From positions 1 through 20,111 of the forward strand of contig CANKON010000001.1 of the NCBI GenBank assembly GCA_947484105.1: 20,111 nt of DNA, read 5' to 3'. Of this stretch, positions 1,411 to 19,986 are shown in pieces. Each line of letters opens with the position of its first letter. Positions within the stretch are counted from its first letter, which is position 1. The position numbers and the translations under genes were made by a program. The notes beneath the pieces were generated by a model. The model made no database searches and was not told the DNA's origin. It saw only the letters and a list, made by a program, of their open reading frames with translations. The stretch is from Methylococcaceae bacterium. Its GTDB lineage: Bacteria; Pseudomonadota; Gammaproteobacteria; Methylococcales; Methylomonadaceae.

Positions 1411-4194
1411 CTAAATTAGCTCCCGAGGATTTAAAACCATCAAAACAGAACCATCACCAAGCAACGCTGCGCCTGAATACCCAGATAAACCGCCTAAAAT
1501 ACCTACCATCGGTTTCAAAATAATATCGACCGTTTCACGGAAATCATCAACCAAAATGCCCACATTTTCACCGTGAACACGCACAATCAATGTTGCAAAT
1601 TCCTTGTCTTCGTTGGCCACTTGTTCAACATTTTGTGCGAGCAAATCGTTTAATGAAAGCAACGGCACAATGCGACCGCGTAAAACAGTAGTTTGTTTTT
1701 GTTTGATATTGCGAATTTGATTGAATGGCACGCGCACCGTTTCAACAACCATATCCATCGGTACGCCAAAGATTTGTTTATTTGACTCAATGATCATGAC
1801 ATTTGTCACCGCCATTGAAAGTGGCAATGATAAAAATAAGCGTGTGCCTTTGCCTGTTTGGCTTTCAATACCAACCGTGCCATTGACTTTTTCAACCGCC
1901 GAGCGAACAACGTCCATGCCAACACCACGACCCGATAAATCTGAAATCACATCAGCCGTTGAAAAACCTGCGGCAAAAACTAAATTCACCGCGTCTTGAT
2001 CGCTGATGCGTTCAAGTGTGGTTTCATCAATTAAGCCTTTTTCATAGGCTTTATTTTTAATCACGTCAGGGTCAATACCTTTACCGTCATCAATAATTTC
2101 AATTAACACACGGTCTGATTCTTGACTTGCACGAATGAGCAATTTGCCTTCAGCAGGTTTGCCTGCAGCGGCTCGTACTTCAGGCGATTCCAAACCGTGA
2201 TCCAAACTGTTTCGCACAATATGAATCAACGGATCGGCTAATGCTTCAATGATATTTTTATCCGCTTCAGTGGTTTCACCTTCTAAAACAAGGTGAACTT
2301 CTTTACCGAGTTTGCGTGAAATATCGCGCACCATGCGTGGGAATCGTTGAAAAATAAACGACACAGGCATCATACGAACTTGCATGATTGTGTCTTGCAT
2401 TTCTTCTGCAACACGGTTAATGACGGCATATTGTGCTTTGATTTCACGCGACAATTCACGCACGCCAAAAACAGTTTCAGCACGATTTGCCAAATACGGT
2501 AACGCATTTTTGGCAACAACCATTTCGCCGATTAAATTCATTAAACGATCAATTTTTTCTTGATCGACTTTAAGCGTTTTCGATGCTGCTGCGCTAGCAT
2601 CTTCTGAACGACGATTAAATTTGATTTCAGGCGAGGCATCCAATTTTTCAGTATTTGCTTCAGACTCTGTTGCCTTGAGTGCAATCGGTTTTTGTGTTTC
2701 TTGAATTACCTCATCATTGGTAATTTGTGCTGGAGTAGTTATTTCAGCCGTTTCAACCGTTTCTTCAACGAGACTTTCAAAGTCTTTGCTATACGTTTCT
2801 AACCAAACAAGTAGAGGCTCTGAACTGCTTTGAGCAAGCGCATCGTTTAACGCTTCGTCTAAGTTTTCAAGGGCTTCATTTTTGTGTAACGCTTGGCAGC
2901 AACCTTTTAATGTTAAAGCAACCGCTTTTAAACGCCCTACAAGCCATGCATTATTTGTGTTAGGTAGATTTAAAATCTCTTTTTGCGAATGAATAATTGC
3001 ATTAACTCGTGCTTGCTCTTCTTTTGATAAATGCACGCTGTTTGATTCAGTGGGTTCATCAATTTTTGCATTTGTCACAGTTTCAACATGAACAGTATCA
3101 TTTTCTGCCAACAATTTTTCATCAGAAACAACGCTTTCAATTATTGGAATTGTGAGAGAAAAAGTGTGTAAAGATTCCAGCAACGCGCTGTGCAATGCGC
3201 CATTAGTTTCATCGAGTTCTAATATCAAAAGTAGCCAACGCAAAGCAGATGAACACCATAAAGCAGGTGACGATAATTCAAGCATCGTGCTGGTTAATTG
3301 ACGCAAGCCTTCGGTATTATTTTTGGCTAATAATGTTTGCGCTTGCTCAATAAAATCATCATAGACAGGCTCATTATTGTGTTCACCCATTGGCGAAATT
3401 AAGTCATTTGCTTGTGTAATGATTTCAAAGCGCACTTCTTCTGGTACATAACGAAATAACTCGTGTAATTCGGAAATATCTGCGCTGGTTATAACTTGAA
3501 ATGTTAATTTGCAATCATAAGCATCCATTTCAGCTAGCGGTGCATTATTTGAAGTCGTAATTGAACTCCAAATAACTTCTGGAATTTGACGCACTAAAAA
3601 GAACGGATCCTCGCCTTTGAAAAAACATTCTGGATCTGGCGTGTACATAAGCCAAATTACAGAATTACCGATTTTTAAATCACGATACGATTGCATCGCA
3701 GTCGCCTCGGGCAATTCCAATTCTGACACATTGAATTCAACACTTTCTTCTAATGCGCCACTGCTTTCAAGCAAAATGGCAACCGCTTCTGAATCAGAAC
3801 CTAGGTTAGTATCAATAATTAACGCGCGTAACGCTTTTGCAAGTGCAGCAGATGTATTGGTATATTGATTACTCAGCTCACCAGTCCCTTCAATTTCATC
3901 AATTAACACACTGACAAAATCCATTGCCTCAAGCAATTGATCCGCTAATGTTTGCGAATAATTAACTCGTCCGTTTCGCACGGAATCCATTAAGTCTTCA
4001 CTTGCGTGCAGAACGCGCGTCATTTCTGGAAAGTCGAATAAACCGCTGTTGCCTTTTAAGGTATGCACAAAACGAAATAATTCCACCATAAATTCGGTGT
4101 TATCGGGTTCGTCTTCGAGTTGCATCAATTTTTCACCAATGCCTTGCAGGAAATCACGTGATTCCGATAAAAATTGTTCTAATAACGCATTCAT
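1411..4194 (-). CDS. cheA: chemotaxis histidine kinase CheA, catalytically complete
   Basis: This is the main kinase of the cluster. It should autophosphorylate on its N-terminal Hpt domain and pass the phosphate to the CheY-like proteins and CheB. Residues below are counted from an upstream GTG (4203); subtract 3 for the ATG chosen here. Hpt is at 5-105 with H47 in HTLKGN. A probable regulatory/docking region at about 180-265 contains CFFKGEDPFFL. A low-complexity linker covers about 360-540, the dimerisation helices about 543-625, and the ATPase about 635-795. All boxes of the ATPase are present: HIVRNSLDHG (N), DDGKGID (G1), GFSTA (F), SGRGVGMD (G2) and GKGTRLF (G3). A CheW-like P5 domain ends the protein. 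I chose the ATG at 4194 because it follows the RR stop by one base and GAGGG lies 8 bases upstream. The GTG would sit on top of the ribosome site. Confidence 0.96.
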   Translation of the reverse strand: MNALLEQFLSESRDFLQGIGEKLMQLEDEPDNTEFMVELFRFVHTLKGNSGLFDFPEMTRVLHASEDLMDSVRNGRVNYSQTLADQLLEAMDFVSVLIDEIEGTGELSNQYTNTSAALAKALRALIIDTNLGSDSEAVAILLESSGALEESVEFNVSELELPEATAMQSYRDLKIGNSVIWLMYTPDPECFFKGEDPFFLVRQIPEVIWSSITTSNNAPLAEMDAYDCKLTFQVITSADISELHELFRYVPEEVRFEIITQANDLISPMGEHNNEPVYDDFIEQAQTLLAKNNTEGLRQLTSTMLELSSPALWCSSALRWLLLILELDETNGALHSALLESLHTFSLTIPIIESVVSDEKLLAENDTVHVETVTNAKIDEPTESNSVHLSKEEQARVNAIIHSQKEILNLPNTNNAWLVGRLKAVALTLKGCCQALHKNEALENLDEALNDALAQSSSEPLLVWLETYSKDFESLVEETVETAEITTPAQITNDEVIQETQKPIALKATESEANTEKLDASPEIKFNRRSEDASAAASKTLKVDQEKIDRLMNLIGEMVVAKNALPYLANRAETVFGVRELSREIKAQYAVINRVAEEMQDTIMQVRMMPVSFIFQRFPRMVRDISRKLGKEVHLVLEGETTEADKNIIEALADPLIHIVRNSLDHGLESPEVRAAAGKPAEGKLLIRASQESDRVLIEIIDDGKGIDPDVIKNKAYEKGLIDETTLERISDQDAVNLVFAAGFSTADVISDLSGRGVGMDVVRSAVEKVNGTVGIESQTGKGTRLFLSLPLSMAVTNVMIIESNKQIFGVPMDMVVETVRVPFNQIRNIKQKQTTVLRGRIVPLLSLNDLLAQNVEQVANEDKEFATLIVRVHGENVGILVDDFRETVDIILKPMVGILGGLSGYSGAALLGDGSVLMVLNPRELI

Positions 4195-4195
4195 T

Positions 4196-4567
4196 TTATG
4201 CACCCTCTCCTAATAATAAACGGGTGTAACTCAGTAAGTCGTTGGGTCTGACAGGTTTTACCAAATACAAATTTGCCCCTGCGCTATACGCTAACACTTG
4301 ATCATTTGACGCGCTTTCGGTCGAAACCATAATGGCGGGAACTTGATTGATGTCTTTTTGGCTGCGAACTTCTTTTAAAAATCCATAACCGTCCATTTTT
4401 GGCATATTGATGTCAACAATATATAAATCGAAATGCGTCGTTAAGGCTTTTTCTAAGGCTTCAATTCCGTTAATCGCTTCTTCAGTGTGATAACCTGCCT
4501 CAATTAAAATGTTGCAGTGATACATACGAACCGTTGCCGCATCATCAATGACTAAGATATTTTTCAT
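4196..4567 (-). CDS. cheY: CheY-like single-domain response regulator between cheR and cheA
   Basis: A 123-residue receiver-only protein with D8-D9, phospho-acceptor D52 (VDINMPKMDG), an S/T pair at 82-83 and K104 (YLVKPV). Every residue needed for phosphorylation is there. The gene overlaps the cheR stop by 4 bases (ATGA), so translation is coupled. GGAGG sits at the end of cheR, and cheA starts one base after the RR stop. This tight cheR-cheY-cheA coupling makes it the most likely primary partner of the CheA at 1411. Its sequence differs clearly from the twin CheY pair, which suggests a separate output or an adaptation role. Receiver identity is certain; which protein it controls cannot be read here. 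Confidence 0.94.
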   Translation of the reverse strand: MKNILVIDDAATVRMYHCNILIEAGYHTEEAINGIEALEKALTTHFDLYIVDINMPKMDGYGFLKEVRSQKDINQVPAIMVSTESASNDQVLAYSAGANLYLVKPVRPNDLLSYTRLLLGEGA

Positions 4568-5407: not shown

Positions 5408-6037
5408 TCAACGATCGCCTTGCCCAATTCGTTTCAATGCCAATTCGACAGAAAAACAAATATAAGGCTCATCAGCAAAACGTATTTTTAAATGCTCTAA
5501 CGCATTTAAAGAAAGTTCCGTACCCACTTCACTAAGTAAATCAACAGCCGTTGCACAAACGTTAACGTGTTCATCCTGTTCGATAACTTGAATTAACCAT
5601 TTTTCAACGTCTTCATGATGAAGTGATTCCAAAATGTTGACTGCGAAAATTCGCACGTCAGAATCGGAATCATTTAACAAACTGTCAATAATTGGCGCGA
5701 CTTGTTCAGGGATATTTTTCAACACTTCAATGGCTTCGTTACGCAATGACGCTTCATCACTACGCAAACATTCAACAATACCTGTGATGGCTTGCTCATC
5801 ACCGATTTGCGCTAAAGTATCTAAAATTGCGGTGCGAACATTGGGATGCGCTTCAATTTTTAAACGCGCAACAAGCGGCGCACTAGCCTGAGAAAACTGC
5901 ACTAAATCACGCGCTGCCCAACGACGTGCCGTTTGATTTTCGTTATTTAATTCAGCGCATAAACCGTCGAAATCACGCGAGGCGGTGCGTTCATCTTCAT
6001 TAACAACTTGTGGGGCGGTTTGTTTTATAAATGCCAT
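5408..6037 (-). CDS. HEAT-repeat protein between cheB and cheR
   Basis: A 209-residue, mostly helical protein with about five HEAT-like repeats from residue 32 to the end. The repeat periodicity is seen in ARRWAARDLVQFS, PNVRTAILDTLAQIG, ASLRNEAIEVLKNIP, SDVRIFAVNILESLH and VNVCATAVDLLSEVG at roughly 31-residue steps. There is no signal peptide, membrane helix or catalytic motif, so it is probably a cytoplasmic scaffold or adaptor. It has a good AGGAG site 6 bases before the ATG and lies 12 bases after cheB and 1 base before cheR. That placement between the two adaptation enzymes suggests it helps recruit or regulate them, or links them to the receptor array. The repeat class is clear; the partner is inference. 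Confidence 0.9.
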   Translation of the reverse strand: MAFIKQTAPQVVNEDERTASRDFDGLCAELNNENQTARRWAARDLVQFSQASAPLVARLKIEAHPNVRTAILDTLAQIGDEQAITGIVECLRSDEASLRNEAIEVLKNIPEQVAPIIDSLLNDSDSDVRIFAVNILESLHHEDVEKWLIQVIEQDEHVNVCATAVDLLSEVGTELSLNALEHLKIRFADEPYICFSVELALKRIGQGDR

Positions 6038-7120: not shown

Positions 7121-8662
7121 TTATTTAGCTGACAATGCGGCAAGCCCAGCGCGATCTTGGGCTTCAAGTAATTGCGCTGGTTCAATTAATAAAATTAAAC
7201 GTTTTTGTTTTTCCAAATTCGCCACACGCGAAATCAAATTCATTTGACTAGATGATAAATTGGGAGCTGGTTCAATCGCAGATTTGGGTACTTTCAGCAC
7301 TTCGGCAACCGAATCCACAATGAAACCTGTCCGCAAACCATCAAACAAAAACACCATAATGCGTTGTTGTTCTGTACGCTCAATCGTTGGCAAACCTAAA
7401 CGACGACGTTGGTCAATCACAGGTAAAACCGCGCCACGCAAATTGATAACCCCTTCAACAAAACTGGGCGATTTTGGAACGTGTGTTAATTCTTCGGGAA
7501 CACGGACAATTTCTTGCACGCTTTCAATTGGCACGCCAAATTCTTCACGGTCTAAACGAAATACAACCATTTGTTCATCATCTTCAATGCCTGCTCTTTC
7601 TGCATTGCTACCCATAGATTCATCCTGTACTTGATCAATAGAATTTAATGCTTCACGCACAGAACTGTGGCGGAACATATTTTCAGCAGAAATAATTGAT
7701 ACTAATCGTTTGCCATTATCTAAACGGCAAATTTCAGTAATTTCTGACAAATCACCTTCACGCCCAAGCATTGAAGGCATGGCATCAACGTAATTTTTCG
7801 ATACGCGTAATACTTCGTTCACGGTATCCATTACTACGCCAACTGACGAATTTCCCACAGCAACGACCACAATGCGGCTGTGTTCATCTGCTGCATGAAA
7901 CGGCAAGTTGAACATTTTTCGCAAACTCACTAGCGGCAACATTCGTTGACGCAGTGTCATCACGCCTAAAACGTGCGAATCAGAATGCGGCACATGAATA
8001 ATGTTTTCAGGTACTTGGACAATTTCTTGTACATCTTCAATGCTAATTGCGTATTCTTGTTCTGCAACAGTAAAACTGACGAGTTGTAATTCATCACTGA
8101 ATTTTGCATCTTCGAGATTTTCTTCTTGACGCAATAACGCTTGCGCGGCAGTACTTGTCGATAATTTCGCAATATCGGAAAATTCATTAGCAATCAATTT
8201 AGCAAAGTCCAACACCATAATCATGGCGTGACCGCCAACATCTTTAATCAACCCCGTTAATAATTCGGTATCGACTGTGCCACTAATTGAACTCACATCT
8301 TCAATTTTACTGATTTCAACGCCCACCACACTTGCAACCGTATCGACTACAAATCCCAACGGTTGCCCTAAATCAATCACAATGGCACGAGTTGCATCGT
8401 TGTACTCTTGTTCTTCAAAACCAAAAATACGACGCAATGAAATAATAGGTAACACCTTGCCGCGTAAATTTGCCAAACCATCAAGCGTATCGGGGGCAAG
8501 CGGTACGCGTACCACAGACGGCACCCGAATAATCTCTTGCACGGGTGCCATATCAACAGCAAACACTTCATCGCCCGCAATAAATGTGACGAACTGACGC
8601 ACATTCGATTCATGCAAAAAGTCGTTTTCTTCCTGTTGTTCGTTCATAACTTCGTTAGACAT
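7121..8662 (-). CDS. cheW: triple CheW coupling protein
   Basis: CheW links chemoreceptors to CheA. This 513-residue protein has three CheW domains in a row instead of one, at about residues 20-160, 190-335 and 363-502. Each repeats the same pattern: a V-F-x-V/I strand, VQEI(I/V)xVP, then the receptor/kinase-contact segment. That segment reads NLRGKVLP in domain 1, TLRQRMLP in domain 2 and NLRGAVLP in domain 3. Domains 1 and 3 therefore keep the canonical RG, while domain 2 has RQ, so its contacts may differ. Linkers of about 30 residues are acidic. It follows the double-tip receptor by 30 bases with a strong AAGGAG site. One protein with three coupling modules could crosslink several receptor tips and CheA P5 domains. 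Confidence 0.96.
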   Translation of the reverse strand: MSNEVMNEQQEENDFLHESNVRQFVTFIAGDEVFAVDMAPVQEIIRVPSVVRVPLAPDTLDGLANLRGKVLPIISLRRIFGFEEQEYNDATRAIVIDLGQPLGFVVDTVASVVGVEISKIEDVSSISGTVDTELLTGLIKDVGGHAMIMVLDFAKLIANEFSDIAKLSTSTAAQALLRQEENLEDAKFSDELQLVSFTVAEQEYAISIEDVQEIVQVPENIIHVPHSDSHVLGVMTLRQRMLPLVSLRKMFNLPFHAADEHSRIVVVAVGNSSVGVVMDTVNEVLRVSKNYVDAMPSMLGREGDLSEITEICRLDNGKRLVSIISAENMFRHSSVREALNSIDQVQDESMGSNAERAGIEDDEQMVVFRLDREEFGVPIESVQEIVRVPEELTHVPKSPSFVEGVINLRGAVLPVIDQRRRLGLPTIERTEQQRIMVFLFDGLRTGFIVDSVAEVLKVPKSAIEPAPNLSSSQMNLISRVANLEKQKRLILLIEPAQLLEAQDRAGLAALSAK

Positions 8663-8692: not shown

Positions 8693-10618
8693 TTACGCGC
8701 TTTGTAATTCGTCAGCGAGTGAAGCGATTTCTTCTATCGCGGCGGATAATTCTTCTGCACCTTGTGATTGTTGCGTTGCAGCGGCAGCGGCTTCAGTTGC
8801 TGCTTTTTCGGCTTCTTGCGCGGCGGCTGAAATTTGTTCAACGCCTGTTTTAACTTGAACGATTGCAGAGGCAATTTCATCAGAAGCCGATAAAATTTCT
8901 TGTGCGCCTGTTTCAATACCTTTCACATCACGTTCAATGACATTTAAACTTTCAGTACTCGCTTTTGATTTTTCAACTTCAGCTTGAGCGCGTACAACGA
9001 TTTCAGCTAAATCTTTGCCAACAACACCGATTTGATCTTGAACGGCTTTGACTAAATCTTTAATGCGATCAGCGTTTTCAGCTGAGTCATGCGCTAAATT
9101 ACGAATGTCAGTTGCGACAACAACGAAACCTTTACCAAATTCACCTGCTCTTGCCGCTTCGATTGAGCCATTGACAGCAAGCATATTGGTTTGAATTGAA
9201 ACGGTTGCAATTGCATCAACGATTTTATCAATGCGGCGCGAGAGCAATTCCAAATCAGTGACTTGTTTAATGCTATCTTGGGTGCTGGACATCGACGCGC
9301 TAATACCTGTAATCAACGAATCTACTAACGTTTTATTTGTCGCCAACATATCTTGCATATTGCGAACACCTTCTAAACCTTTAGTGCTTTTTTCTTGCGC
9401 AAGGTCTAAGCCTTTTTGAATTTGTGACAATGCCGCCGCTGACTCTTCCGTTGCCGCCGCTTGTGAACGTGCGCCATCACGAATTTGACTAATTGCTGCC
9501 ATAATTTGCGTGCCTGAACGGTTAATTTCTTGCACCGCTGATGATAATTCTTCAGCAGCTGAAGCCACTTCTTCAGCACTTTTTGCAATATCGGTTGAGG
9601 TTTTTAAATCTTCAGCAAGTTCTGACAAACTTTGCGCGAGTTGTTCACATTCTGATAAGGCTTGTGATTGTTCATCAACGGTTTTACTTGCTTCTTCCGC
9701 CGCCGCTGATTGTTCTTCCGCCGCAGTTGCAATCGCTTCTGAGCCTTGCAGAGCTTGTTGTGAAGCTGTTACGGATTGCTGTGCGCCTGTTGCCACTTCA
9801 CGAATCCCTTTTAAAACTTCGGTACTTTCAAAACCAATTTTTTTCAATTGCTCATTGATTAAACGACCATTTTCAACTTCCGCTTCAACCGTTTTTGCTG
9901 ACGTGTTAATGCCATCAGCGATAATTTTTACTTCTTTTTGAATTTGGGCGACTAAATCTTGAATTTGTTTCGCGCTTTTTTCTGACGTTTCTGCCAACGT
10001 GCGTACTTCATCTGCCACAACAGCAAAACCTTTACCGTGTTGCCCTGCTCTTGCCGCTTCAATTGCCGCGTTTAACGCCAATAAATTGGTTTGATCTGCA
10101 ATTCGTGCCACTGCTTTGACGATGTCGCCAATGTTTGCCGCTTGGCTTTCGAGTTCATTTACCATTTCAACCGATGCGGCTTGACGTTTTGCCGCCATGC
10201 CAACGTTTACAACTAAATCGCTGATGTCATTGGACACTCTGCCGATTAAACTTCCTGCATTGTCGCCACGAACTTGGCTTGCTTCCGCGCTTTGTAATTG
10301 ACGAGTAATCGCGCCAACAACTTGTTTTAAAGCAACGGTTGATTCTTCGGCTGCGCCTGAAGCTTCTTCTGCCCCTGCCGCAATTTGATCAGCAGCGCGT
10401 TTTAATTCTTCTGCCGCTGATGCGGCTTCATTGATACCTGATGATAATTGACCTGTTGCAGCTGCAACGCGCTCTGCGGCTTGTTGTTGTTTTGCAAAAG
10501 TACGCGCTTTTTTGCGCTGCGCTTCTGCATCACGGCTAGTTGCCGCGTTAGAGGTTGAAGATGATGATGAACCGCTTCTGCCTGTTGAAGCGTTTGATGA
10601 TTTTTTCATGAGAGCCAT
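8693..10618 (-). CDS. soluble chemoreceptor with two signalling tips (DosM-like)
   Basis: A 641-residue methyl-accepting protein without signal peptide, membrane helix or ligand-binding domain. After a basic, Ser-rich N terminus (about 1-40) it is almost all coiled coil, rich in Ala and Glu. Two separate hairpin tips are visible. Tip 1 is at about 173-206 ([30 protein letters not shown]) and tip 2 at about 473-506 ([30 protein letters not shown]). Their QTN motifs are exactly 300 residues apart. EE/QQ-rich segments around 297-311, 351-363 and 618-635 could be methylation sites. DosM of Vibrio cholerae, from memory, has two signalling domains and holds a cytoplasmic CheA array together; I infer the same here. 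It is the first gene of block A, with AAGG 8 bases before its ATG. Confidence 0.93.
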
Positions 10619-15737: not shown

Positions 15738-18700
15738 CTAAATACTGTTTGTGTCAAAAATGGCGTTAATGTCTAAAACTAAACCCACATCGCTGCTTCC
15801 CAATAATGTGCAACCAATCACTCCGCGAATATGGGATAAATAACCTTGCAATGGACGCGATAAAACATTTTGTTGCCCAATCAATTCACTCACTTTTATA
15901 GCAACTCGCTGTTCTTCTTTACCAATGACAACAAATAACTGTTTTTCTTCATCGGCAAAATCGTTAGTTTCTTGATTATTTTGATGACTGCCTTTTAAAA
16001 ACTGCACAGGAATAGTGTCGTTATTTTCTAAATGCAGCATAAAACCGCTTTCATCAGCAGATACGCTCATTAAATTATTTTTATCAATACGAATAATGCG
16101 CTGTATGGCATCAATGGGAATAACGTAATGCACGGCGTTAATTCTGACGACCATGCCTTCAAGTAACAGCATGGTTAGCGACATGGTGAGCGTAAAACGC
16201 AAACCGCCTGTTGGCAGATTGGTTATCCAAATGTTGCCGCCATGCAGTTGCAACGTGTCACGCATTTTTGAAAAATCAACGCTATTTTCACTGTCTTCGT
16301 CGTTAAACGTTACGCCGTAAGCGGGATTGAAAATAGATTCTAATTGATTGGCTAAACCTAACTGTGCGGCTCTGCGAGCGACATTTTGTGTATCAATGCC
16401 AATGCCGTCATCTTCAATAATAATTTTGACGTGATCGTCATTTTCAATCAGCACAACGCGCAATTTGGCTTGTTCATTCTTGCCGCTTTCAACGCGCTGT
16501 TCTTGGGTTTCAATGCTTTGCGTCATGCAAAATGTCAACAATGTTCGCAACGGGGCTTTTAAATTTTCAAGCATCGTAAAATCAAGCGACACATCATCGC
16601 CTTCGGTGCTGAAATTAACGGCGCGATTTTTTTGCCGAGCTGTGCTTTCAACAAAAGGATAAAGCGGTTTTAAAAGCTGCATTGCCGAGCGCATACGCCC
16701 CGCAATCGCTTCTTCTTGCAACTGTTCCATTAAGGCGTTGGTTTGCACTTCAATTTGAATGAGCTTTTCAACTTTGTCTTGCCAAAGCAAAAGATATTGG
16801 CGCACATCATCTTTGGCTTGCGTCCAATGTCCATCAACGGCATTTAATTTAACGTCGATATTTTTAGCTAAATCTTCTTCAACTAAATCACGCAACAAAT
16901 GGCGCATCATGGCTTGATTGGTAACAAGTTCACCGATGGATTCAAGCATATCGCACGACATTTGTCCTTGATTTGCTAAAGGCAAACCATCTGACGTTTT
17001 CGCTAATTCAGATTGCCGAAGACGGTTCGTTTCATCACCGACAGTTTTATGATCTTCTAAAACATGGGTGACAAATAATGATTTACCGCTGTGGTCGAGG
17101 TTAATTAAAACTTCTTTGAATTGCGTTGGATTGAGATTTGTTGAAATCAAAAAATCAAACAACGTGCGATTACCTTCAAAAACAGTCACGTTGCTAATTG
17201 CCGTCACAGAATCTGAACTGACCCATGTCAAAAAATTTGTCGCTAATTCTTCGTCTTGTTCTAAATCTGTTCGGACGATGAAAAAGTGTTTGTTTGCGTC
17301 TAAATCATCAGCGGCAATTTTGACGCTTTCCGTTGTGAGAATTTTATGGAACGGTTGTGGTAATGCTAAACGTGCTTCAATCATTGATGCTGAAACTACT
17401 GCGCCACTCGATACAAATACCGCTGACGTTGCATCGTCTAATAATTTTTCAATTTGTCCCATGTCAGGTGCAATGCCTGATTCAAGACTGCTTAACACTA
17501 ATTCAATGCCGCTTACAAAGGATTTTGCAATGTGCAACATAAAGCCATCGACAACCATATCACCGTTGGTAATGCGTGCGAATAAATCCATTAACGACAT
17601 ACTGAGTTGTGCAGCAGTTTCTAATCCGTAATGCTGGCAAGCGTAATAAATTTTCCGTAACGCTTCATTGATGCGCGTGCAGTTATATTCAACGTTTGAG
17701 CGATTTTTAATGCTTTCTAAAATGTTATTGATAATAAGCAAATTTGCAAAAACGTGTTTGCTACATAAATAACCGAGCATCGTTTGTGTATGTGAATTAA
17801 CGCGCGTTTGCCCTTCAAAAATCACATTTTCAATTGCAATCAACGCTTCAAATAACCAAAACAAAAAATCTTGCACATTTTGATGGGTGAGCACGACGTG
17901 GCGATTCGGTTCGATAAATTCATCAATTAACGACACTAATTGCACAAAATCTAACGGTTCAGCTAAATTTTTAATTTCTTCTAACGCAGCAATAAATTGT
18001 GGGCTGTTAAATTCCGCCGAGTCATAAACCGCTTTAACTAATTGAAGTGGTTTTTTTATTTCATCGAAAAAATTAGCAATTTCTGGCGTTGCCAAATTAT
18101 TAGCATTTACGCCATCAAGAAGCGCGGAAGCAGACTCATTTTGTGCAGGCAATTTTTTTCCAAAATCTTGCAACAGCAAATTTTTTAATTGATCAAAAAC
18201 ATTTTCTGCATCGGATTTTTCAAATGTTGACGCGCTTAAAAATTCCTCTAAAACTTTTTCCCATTTTAGAAAGCCCAATTGTTGCGCGGCAGAATTTATA
18301 TGTTCAGCTTGTTCGCGTAACTCTGATTGTGAATTTTCTTCGTCAAATTGATTTAGTGTTTGTTGCATTTCAAGCAAAGTTTCACTTGTCAGCGTAGCGA
18401 ACATATCTCGATAAACAGGGTCATCTGCCAAATCAATCGGATTAAAAATTATTGCCGTTTCAGAAACAAAAGACGCACTTTCAAATAAATCGTCAATTTC
18501 TTCTGTTACGCCTTCAAGCAAAGCGTAAGCAGGTAATTCCACAGGTAATTCTTTTTGAAAGTCTTGTAACAATAAATTTTTTAACTGTTCAAATACATTT
18601 TCAGCGTCTGATTTTTGAAAAGTTGATGCGGTTAAAAATTCACTTAAAACTTTTTCCCATGCAAAAAAACTTAATTGTTGAGCCGCAAAATTGATGTGTT

Positions 18701-19544
18701 CAGCTTGTTCGAGTAATTCTGTTTGTGAATTTTCGTTAAATTTTTCTAACGTTTGACGCATTTCAACCAATGTTTCACTTGCAAGCATCGCAAACAAATC
18801 TCGATAAACGGGGTCTTGCGCTAAATCAACTGGATTAAAAATTATCGCCGTGTCAGAAACAAACGACGCATTGCTAAATAATTCGTCTAATTCTTCGGTG
18901 GCTTCCAATTCATTAACGTAAATTGGTGAATCTTCCGTTTGGGTTACTTCTTCAAGAATATCTTCTGCGCTGGCTTGATATTCGACAATTTCAATGCTGT
19001 CTTCAACTTGCGCTTCGGTTTTAGTTTTTGTTTTTTTAGATTTGGTGGGTTTTGCAGCGGCAAAAAAATCATCTTCGATTTCGATTTTTTCTTCTGATTT
19101 TTTAATTTGTTCGGTTGGTTTTTGTTCAACTTCTGGCGTTTCAATACCGTGACAACGCGCTATTTTTTGTTTTAAACGTTCAACTAATTCCGCGCTATTT
19201 TCAGGATTTGCATCTTGTTGAGATTCGCACGTTTTAGTGAGCATATCATTTAAAACATCAATAATTTCAAGCAATAAATCCGTAATTTCGTTATCAAGTG
19301 GCACGCCTTCGTCGCGCACAATACCAATTAAATCTTCCGCAACATGAGCGCGAGATTCAATGACAGCTAATCCCATCACACGCGAATTGCCCTTAAATGT
19401 GTGAACAGAACGAAATAAACTTGAAATGGTTTCTTTATCGGACGGCGATTTTTTCAAAAACAAAACGGCTTCTTCGGCCGCTTGCAAGGATTGTTGACCT
19501 TCGTCAGCATAGAGTTCCCAAATTTCATTTACTTCATCAGACAT
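15738..19544 (-). CDS. giant CheA-like protein with degenerate kinase core
   Basis: A 1268-residue protein. Hpt is at 1-105 with intact H48 in HTFKGN. An acidic/basic linker covers about 135-215. Two tandem copies of a helical repeat lie at about 217-334 and 347-464. A long helical region follows (about 490-850), then dimerisation-like helices (about 862-965), an ATPase-like domain (about 975-1122) and a CheW-like C terminus (about 1125-1265). Compared with the CheA at 1411, the N box is gone: HIVRNSLDHG is replaced by TLLTFCMTQS (1001-1010). G2 is also gone, with SENSVD in place of SGRGVGMD. G1 (DDGIGID) remains. ATP hydrolysis is therefore doubtful. It may be a scaffold and phosphate acceptor served by the other CheA. 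It follows the receiver gene by 37 bases with a poor ribosome site. Confidence 0.92.
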   Translation of the reverse strand: MSDEVNEIWELYADEGQQSLQAAEEAVLFLKKSPSDKETISSLFRSVHTFKGNSRVMGLAVIESRAHVAEDLIGIVRDEGVPLDNEITDLLLEIIDVLNDMLTKTCESQQDANPENSAELVERLKQKIARCHGIETPEVEQKPTEQIKKSEEKIEIEDDFFAAAKPTKSKKTKTKTEAQVEDSIEIVEYQASAEDILEEVTQTEDSPIYVNELEATEELDELFSNASFVSDTAIIFNPVDLAQDPVYRDLFAMLASETLVEMRQTLEKFNENSQTELLEQAEHINFAAQQLSFFAWEKVLSEFLTASTFQKSDAENVFEQLKNLLLQDFQKELPVELPAYALLEGVTEEIDDLFESASFVSETAIIFNPIDLADDPVYRDMFATLTSETLLEMQQTLNQFDEENSQSELREQAEHINSAAQQLGFLKWEKVLEEFLSASTFEKSDAENVFDQLKNLLLQDFGKKLPAQNESASALLDGVNANNLATPEIANFFDEIKKPLQLVKAVYDSAEFNSPQFIAALEEIKNLAEPLDFVQLVSLIDEFIEPNRHVVLTHQNVQDFLFWLFEALIAIENVIFEGQTRVNSHTQTMLGYLCSKHVFANLLIINNILESIKNRSNVEYNCTRINEALRKIYYACQHYGLETAAQLSMSLMDLFARITNGDMVVDGFMLHIAKSFVSGIELVLSSLESGIAPDMGQIEKLLDDATSAVFVSSGAVVSASMIEARLALPQPFHKILTTESVKIAADDLDANKHFFIVRTDLEQDEELATNFLTWVSSDSVTAISNVTVFEGNRTLFDFLISTNLNPTQFKEVLINLDHSGKSLFVTHVLEDHKTVGDETNRLRQSELAKTSDGLPLANQGQMSCDMLESIGELVTNQAMMRHLLRDLVEEDLAKNIDVKLNAVDGHWTQAKDDVRQYLLLWQDKVEKLIQIEVQTNALMEQLQEEAIAGRMRSAMQLLKPLYPFVESTARQKNRAVNFSTEGDDVSLDFTMLENLKAPLRTLLTFCMTQSIETQEQRVESGKNEQAKLRVVLIENDDHVKIIIEDDGIGIDTQNVARRAAQLGLANQLESIFNPAYGVTFNDEDSENSVDFSKMRDTLQLHGGNIWITNLPTGGLRFTLTMSLTMLLLEGMVVRINAVHYVIPIDAIQRIIRIDKNNLMSVSADESGFMLHLENNDTIPVQFLKGSHQNNQETNDFADEEKQLFVVIGKEEQRVAIKVSELIGQQNVLSRPLQGYLSHIRGVIGCTLLGSSDVGLVLDINAIFDTNSI
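18153..18896 (-). repeat. tandem internal duplication in the CheA-like gene
   Basis: Two direct copies, about 354 bases each with a 390-base period, encode residues 217-334 and 347-464. Shared landmarks are TEE(L/I)D(E/D)LF, AIIFNP(V/I)DLA, DPVYRD, AEHIN-AAQQL, WEKVL-EFL-AS and NVF-QLKNLLLQDF. Both the protein and the DNA remain clearly alike, so the duplication is fairly recent. Confidence 0.9.
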
Positions 19545-19581: not shown

Positions 19582-19986
19582 TTAGATGCCTAAAACTTTT
19601 TTAATCGTTTGTTGCATTTCTGCGCCGCGTTTTTCGGCTAAATCGAGTGAAACTGCACCTGACGGTTTGGTAATAATTGCATCTGCGCCAAGCATTCTGG
19701 CTTTTGCAGCATAAGGCGACCCCGCAATTGCCACTGACGATAAAATCACAATTTTGGCTTTGGTGCGTAATCGCGCAAGACGCAAAAACTCTAAACCGTC
19801 CATTTCGGGCATTTCAATATCAAGCAAAATTAACGCTAAATCTTTATGTTTATCTAATTCTTCCAAGGCTTTTTTACCATTTTCTGCTGTTGCGACAACT
19901 GAAAAATTTGCCCATTTGCTAACAAGATTTCGAGTAACATTTCGCATCATCACTGAATCATCAACAATCATCACGTTATAAGCCAT
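19582..19986 (-). CDS. CheY/CheB-type receiver protein preceding the CheA-like gene
   Basis: A 134-residue receiver-only protein with D9-D10, phospho-acceptor D56 (LLDIEMPEMDG), an SS pair near 83-84 and K107 (ITKPSG). It resembles the receiver half of CheB (VDDSVMMR, ILSSVAIAGSPYAAKA, KPSGAVSLDLA) more than the stand-alone CheY proteins of block A. It ends about 27 residues after KPSG with no esterase domain, so it is either a CheY derived from a CheB receiver or a truncated CheB that now acts alone. AAGGAG lies 8 bases before its ATG, a strong site. With only 37 bases to the giant CheA-like gene, the two are co-transcribed and probably exchange phosphate. Confidence 0.92.
   Translation of the reverse strand: MAYNVMIVDDSVMMRNVTRNLVSKWANFSVVATAENGKKALEELDKHKDLALILLDIEMPEMDGLEFLRLARLRTKAKIVILSSVAIAGSPYAAKARMLGADAIITKPSGAVSLDLAEKRGAEMQQTIKKVLGI

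Follow-up and report, generated by a model that had tools for sequence, protein, structure and literature searches.

How can a CheA protein that has lost much of its ATP site take part in signaling, and which kinase would supply its phosphate? Both questions are raised by the window analyzed here, a stretch of 20,111 nucleotides from a Methylococcaceae bacterium, in which the gene for a canonical CheA of 930 residues is accompanied by one for a second CheA of 1268 residues. The original prediction held that the second protein is a pseudokinase that may accept phosphate from the first, much as CheA3 and CheA4 of Rhodobacter share the job. The split of CheA into CheA3 and CheA4 has so far been treated as a curiosity of the Rhodobacteraceae. 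In the accessible part of PMC2829493, the CheA3 architecture is described as very rare; excerpts of PMC10782961 report the CheA3/CheA4 pair in twenty other Rhodobacteraceae genomes and present the CheA3 of R. sphaeroides with a dead HATPase and extra Hpt domains, called largely nonfunctional; and a 2023 survey, in the portion available, sets the origin of the system within the Rhodobacteraceae. In PMC6759762, as far as its accessible text goes, CheA3 and CheA4 denote Azospirillum paralogues. A partial literature search, with most subscription journals outside it, returned no paper on CheA3/CheA4 in Methylococcales.

Judged by its sequence, the 1268-residue protein is the CheA3-type half of a split CheA. 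The best explanation of the data as a whole, and one that we hold to be very probable, is that it is phosphorylated by CheA4 and passes the phosphate on to CheY6.

Domain layout and the ATP site

The reading frame of the cheA3-type gene is uninterrupted, and Pfam matches in the protein cover residues 7–98 (Hpt), 1021–1123 (HATPase_c) and 1129–1264 (CheW). Its features, together with the neighboring gene and the comparison protein, are as follows.

15738..19544, minus strand: cheA3-type gene, 1268 residues, with P1, degenerate Hpt-like repeats, P2-like unit, P3, dead P4 and P5 (CheW-like)
19149..19544, minus strand: P1 (Hpt), residues 1–132; Pfam Hpt 4.8e-11, best PDB match 3kyi_A at 8.2e-37
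19401-19403, minus strand: codon of His48, the predicted phosphorylation site in P1
19383-19403, minus strand: HTFKGNS, which contains His48; retained in the CheA3-type protein
18555..18812, minus strand: helical Hpt-like repeat, residues 245–330; predicted four-helix unit, weak fold match
18159..18419, minus strand: helical Hpt-like repeat, residues 376–462; tandem copy of the repeat at residues 245–330
17478..18086, minus strand: two modeled four-helix Hpt-like units, residues 487–577 and 585–689; weak fold match
17055..17390, minus strand: P2-like alpha/beta unit, residues 719–830; predicted secondary structure, without firm fold match
16695..16973, minus strand: P3-like dimerization helices, residues 858–950, from the structure model; no Pfam match to H-kinase_dim anywhere in the protein
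16167..16694, minus strand: P4 HATPase fold without N and G2 boxes, residues 951–1126; HATPase_c 9e-9, Foldseek
16509..16553, minus strand: N-box position, residues 998–1012, PLRTLLTFCMTQSIE, by alignment
16392..16415, minus strand: G1 box EDDGIGID, residues 1044–1051, retained, by alignment
16269..16307, minus strand: acidic stretch FNDEDSENSVDFS in place of GRGVG (ATP lid / G2 box), residues 1080–1092, by alignment
15753..16166, minus strand: P5 (CheW-like), residues 1127–1264; Pfam CheW 1.2e-12
19582..19986, minus strand: cheY6-type response regulator, 134 residues, with Met13 and Asp56, upstream of cheA3
1411..4203, minus strand: canonical CheA, 930 residues, in a separate cluster, with intact N and GRGVG boxes

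The original prediction concerned positions 16197-16550, which correspond to residues 999–1116 of the open reading frame, and its description of this span proved accurate. When aligned to the canonical CheA, residues T1001, T1004, F1005, T1008, Q1009 and S1010, whose codons fall between 16515 and 16544, stand opposite H661, R664, N665, D668, H669 and G670 of the N box; the acidic run occupies the place of GRGVG; and both the DDGIGID motif and the Hpt histidine are kept. The alignment therefore places in this protein neither the N box (H-R-N-D-H-G) nor the GRGVG box of an active kinase, and the 1268-residue CheA is predicted to be unable to use ATP for phosphorylating itself. The proposed pseudokinase character and the role as phosphate acceptor are thus both supported at the level of sequence.

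The loss is conserved. CheA3-type proteins were found at 21 loci, comprising 15 from Methylococcales, four from Rhodobacteraceae and one each from genomes G835 and G1170, and 18 of these were aligned, those of G015, G487 and G1170 being omitted as frame-broken, split or partial. Intact frames among the relatives range from 1018 to 1350 residues; in G467 (L129:8216-11453) and G015 (L025:3470-7158) the gene lies in two frames, reflecting either assembly error or a real frameshift. An intact N box occurs in none of the 18 aligned proteins. All 18 have another residue in place of the N-box Asn and lack GRGVG, with DDG retained in every one, so the loss of the boxes is more than chance. The P1 histidine is present in all 16 rows that cover P1. 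Traces of the N box survive as both histidines in G454, the second histidine in G567, G533 and G535, and an Asp-His pair in L033; of the G2 box, G835 and G467 retain a GxGV remnant. In CheA4, the N, G1 and G2 boxes are intact in 13 of 13 aligned proteins. The 32 canonical CheA rows of the same alignment were chosen beforehand by their N-box motif and therefore constitute no independent control.

Could the protein still be an active kinase with an unusual ATP site in which the N-box Asn is dispensable? The DDG kept in all 18 aligned proteins, the single N-box residues left in some relatives and the well-predicted P4 fold would fit such a reading, which we nevertheless consider very improbable, because the N-box Asn and GRGVG are missing in 18 of 18 proteins, the segment between DDG and P5 falls 7–45 residues short of that in CheA4, and the CheA3 of R. 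sphaeroides, according to the accessible text of PMC2817712, does not autophosphorylate.

Relationship to CheA3 and CheY6

The likeness to the Rhodobacter CheA3/CheA4 pair that had been proposed turned out to be closer than an analogy, with the protein emerging as a CheA3 relative by sequence, by neighboring gene and by gene order in relatives; the part that found no support is the window's canonical CheA as its phosphate donor. The top PDB match of the whole protein is the P1 domain of R. sphaeroides CheA3 (3kyi_A; 3kyj has an identical chain sequence), with which P1 shares 68 of 130 residues. Among the CheA3-P1/CheY6 contact residues named in the available part of PMC2817712, Ile11, Leu14, Tyr15, His51, Asn56, Arg58 and Val59 are unchanged, and Leu60 is replaced by Met. 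The adjacent response regulator has its best matches in the two CheY6 chains (3kyj_B at 3.5e-41 and the other at 4.9e-40), the best non-CheY6 match following at 8.3e-16. It is 55% identical to R. sphaeroides CheY6 and keeps Asp56, the KPSG loop and Met13, the residue to which the accessible text of PMC2817712 attributes CheA3 specificity; contact residues Ala12, Leu16 and Tyr17 are replaced by V, N and V.

The protein, its long middle region included, can be aligned from P1 to P5 with the CheA3 of four Rhodobacteraceae at 31–35% identity, with gaps at a tandem repeat and in P4; it is through these four loci, not R. sphaeroides CheA3, that the likeness of the middle to the '794-residue' region of CheA3 was assessed. 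The repeat is a duplication within residues 220–480, whose two units are 73% identical over 128 residues. A model of residues 200–870 built from five sequences (pLDDT 71.7, pTM 0.38) contains four four-helix units and one alpha/beta unit. Foldseek with the middle region returned nothing under 1e-3, the best relevant matches (CheA P1 and P1-P2) having E values of 0.06–0.1, and since these reach 0.06 at best, the reading of the middle as Hpt and P2 domains is weak here. HHpred on R. sphaeroides CheA3, as given in the accessible part of PMC10782961, agrees with that reading.

In a tree of the P3-P5 region, the CheA3 (17 sequences, support 100/100) and the CheA4 (13 sequences, 100/99) each form one clade that spans classes, apart from the 32 canonical CheA. 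A sister relationship between the two clades was not accepted as firm, with support of 88/90 and long branches meeting.

CheA4, gene order and distribution

In eight relatives (L123, L124, L125, L127, L128, L034, L035 and L136) the genes run in the order cheA4-cheR-cheB-cheW-(ppfA)-tlpT-cheY6-cheA3, with a permuted version in L023, and this operon order is common to methanotrophs, Rhodobacteraceae and G835. Pfam identifies CheR, CheB, CheW, MCP, a ParA-like ATPase and a CheA4 with P3-P4-P5 in L125 and L127, a gene content also given for cheOp3 of R. sphaeroides in the accessible parts of PMC7277832 and PMC10924463. CheA4 accompanies CheA3 closely: within the window's genus it occurs in 5 of 7 genomes with CheA3 and 0 of 11 without, and outside the genus in 14 of 14 and 0 of 33, which amounts to 19/21 against 0/44 among related genomes that are not independent trials. 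The two CheA3-containing genomes without a CheA4 match are G001 and the window's own, G000. CheA4, CheB2 and TlpT were not found in the latter assembly, which is 72.5% complete; the window's contig stops at 20111, 125 bases past cheY6, and in G001 the contig with ppfA-cheW-cheB stops 81 bases past the cheB match.

These observations bear on the identity of the phosphodonor, which had been proposed to be the window's other CheA. The canonical protein has a P4 with all boxes, and its gene lies within 20 kb of cheA3. It belongs, however, to another cluster, one that has CheY, CheR, CheB and triple CheW genes of its own, and a dedicated CheA4 tracks CheA3 across genomes as described; moreover, G011 and G016 encode a CheA that resembles the canonical one in size and match pattern, yet have no CheA3-type match. 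That the canonical CheA is the donor is therefore decidedly unlikely. As CheA4 both keeps the catalytic boxes and tracks CheA3, it is probably the phosphodonor of the window's CheA3. Also in the window are an open reading frame of 513 residues (7121-8662) with three consecutive CheW domains in three Pfam stretches, a HEAT-repeat protein of 209 residues (5408-6037; HEAT_2 1.4e-26) encoded in the canonical cluster between its cheR and cheB genes, and a receptor of 641 residues (8693-10618) with two MCP signaling stretches by Pfam and no membrane segment by eye.

The CheA3-type protein is sparsely distributed. It is present in 7 of 18 genomes of the window's genus and, at E 1e-50 or better, in 15 of 301 Methylococcales genomes, representing 6 of 50 genera and two families. 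A sample of the class contained it in 1 of 369 genomes (the window's own) and one of the phylum in 2 of 398 (the window's own and G835), and it occurs in 2 of 248 genomes of the family of G835. Four Rhodobacteraceae in the older sense (L032-L035) came from the best 80 of 538 CheY6 matches across the contig collection; the loci do not include R. sphaeroides itself. Among 26 genomes searched in the window's surroundings, 20 gave a match to the methane monooxygenase marker pmoA (PF02461), and on this basis we take the window to come from a Methylococcales methanotroph, although its own incomplete assembly gave no match.

A concatenated tree of the cluster in 19 genomes (G487 dropped for scant data, five rows at most about half filled) separates the Methylococcales (100/99) from the Rhodobacteraceae and G835. 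It gives no direction of transfer, because all Methylococcales rows stand on one side. Forcing family f1 together was rejected (p 0.0025), and this failure of the family to hold together suggests that the cluster has moved within the Methylococcales.

In some genomes the cluster also lies close to flagellar genes, among which FliF, FliG and the ATPase were assigned by Pfam and fliH and fliJ by eye. In the genomes of L032, L034 and L035, cheA4 and fliF are ~2.4 kb apart, with fliG and fliI next after fliF, and in G551, fliF, fliG and a flagellar ATPase come after cheA3. The 20,111-base window contains no flagellar genes; the fliF of its genome sits on contig C197. In the FliF tree, the cheOp3-linked copy of Rhodobacteraceae sits on a long branch among the gammaproteobacterial sequences (100/100). 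A gammaproteobacterial origin of Fla1 is proposed in the accessible text of PMC7277832, with which PMC12363192, in its available part, disagrees, having the flagellar clusters of Rhodobacterales taken from other alphaproteobacterial orders. Methylococcales as the donor of Rhodobacter Fla1 were considered and not retained, the FliF tree not resolving the Rhodobacteraceae copy as their neighbor. The FliF of G454 (L165), a genome assembled as a single contig of 4,703,534 bases, belongs to a different gammaproteobacterial group than the other 19 Methylococcales rows; since it groups apart, the flagellum of G454 may have another origin, despite the CheA3 cluster.

The dead P4, the proposed mechanism and known systems

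The stretch from the N box to P5 comprises 137 residues in the window's CheA3, 133–140 in ten other methanotroph CheA3, 130 in G835, 109 in G533 and G535, and 90–91 in the four Rhodobacteraceae, compared to 147 in CheA4. By these lengths, P4 is less eroded in most methanotrophs than in the Rhodobacteraceae, with G533 and G535 in between. An AlphaFold2 model of residues 858–1268 from 32 sequences has a pLDDT of 85, with the ATP lid (residues 1073–1085) under 50; its best Foldseek match is the CheA 1b3q_A at 4e-30, and isolated P4 structures reach TM scores (by target) of up to 0.85. By the Nei-Gojobori method, P4 gave dN/dS ratios of 0.071 (window–G009), 0.066 (G003–G004), 0.088 (G551–G465) and 0.226 (G533–G535), and P5 gave 0.063, 0.035, 0.112 and 0.087 for the same pairs, with synonymous sites near saturation in window–G009 and G003–G004; window–G008 yielded no ratio for P4. 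The cheA3-type gene, including P4, is under purifying selection, although P4 by its sequence cannot be a kinase.

Two readings in terms of decay can be weighed against these values. The gene as a whole might be a decaying pseudogene, as could be argued from the two relatives in which it lies in two frames (G467, L129; G015, L025); with an open frame of 1268 residues and dN/dS far below 1, we find this hardly credible. Alternatively, the dead domains might be debris, P4 having drifted without function after duplication, which is how the accessible text of PMC10782961 reads the R. sphaeroides protein. P4 has lost length in the four Rhodobacteraceae, G533 and G535, and in the G533–G535 pair it has the highest dN/dS of five regions, i.e., it is the least constrained. 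Against this, P4 ratios are 0.066–0.226 in the four methanotroph pairs and, for three of them, differ from those of P5 by no more than about two-fold, making debris an unlikely description.

On how phosphate travels and in which direction, on the phosphatase, on membership in an array and on control of the motor, we infer the following scheme, with the protein as a CheA3. A separate short CheA4 (P3-P4-P5, about 406 residues) probably phosphorylates His48 of P1, and phosphorylated P1 would then be the donor for the neighboring CheY6, whose probable target is the flagellar motor. The CheA3 of R. sphaeroides is reportedly a phosphatase (a 2008 finding of Porter, through others' citations), and by analogy the long middle part here probably also dephosphorylates CheY6. 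As a conserved module of structural or regulatory function, P3, the dead P4 and P5 would anchor CheA3 in a cytoplasmic array of TlpT and CheW4, whose position may be set by the ParA-like PpfA. Going further, the dead P4 might be a constrained regulatory part that links receptor state or DDG-bound nucleotide to the CheY6 phosphatase, and R. sphaeroides might have acquired its split kinase jointly with the foreign Fla1 flagellum, the donor being a gammaproteobacterial relative of these methanotrophs, in which the less eroded form persists; this combined proposal is tentative, and we rate it as possible rather than probable.

New in this work are the gammaproteobacterial (Methylococcales) home of the system, the less eroded P4 in most of its members, the constraint on P4 and the joint occurrence with CheA4. 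The methanotrophs thereby provide another lineage for studying the role of CheA3's dead domains, their less eroded sequences should be useful for mapping the CheA3 phosphatase, and they offer a concrete place to seek the source of R. sphaeroides Fla1, whose origin has been ascribed to an unnamed gammaproteobacterium. We predict that steering in some methanotrophs depends on a split kinase within a cytoplasmic array.

Compared with known systems, the protein shares the domain order P1...P3-P4-P5 with the canonical 930-residue CheA, in which the N and GRGVG boxes lost from the CheA3 type are intact. The counterpart of R. sphaeroides CheA4, a P3-P4-P5 kinase, is carried in the operon by relatives and was not found in the window's incomplete assembly; the CheA4 of G533 and of the four Rhodobacteraceae genomes are 55–60% identical. 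The window's regulator differs from R. sphaeroides CheY6 at contact residues 12, 16 and 17. With R. sphaeroides CheA3 and its cheOp3, compared through P1 and the four related Rhodobacteraceae loci only, the protein has in common a P1 with the CheY6 pocket, a long middle, a dead P4, P5 and a neighboring cheY6, as well as the operon content of its relatives. It is set apart from the CheA3 of R. (Cereibacter) sphaeroides by a P4 of near full length, by a tandem Hpt-like copy and by its home in another bacterial class.
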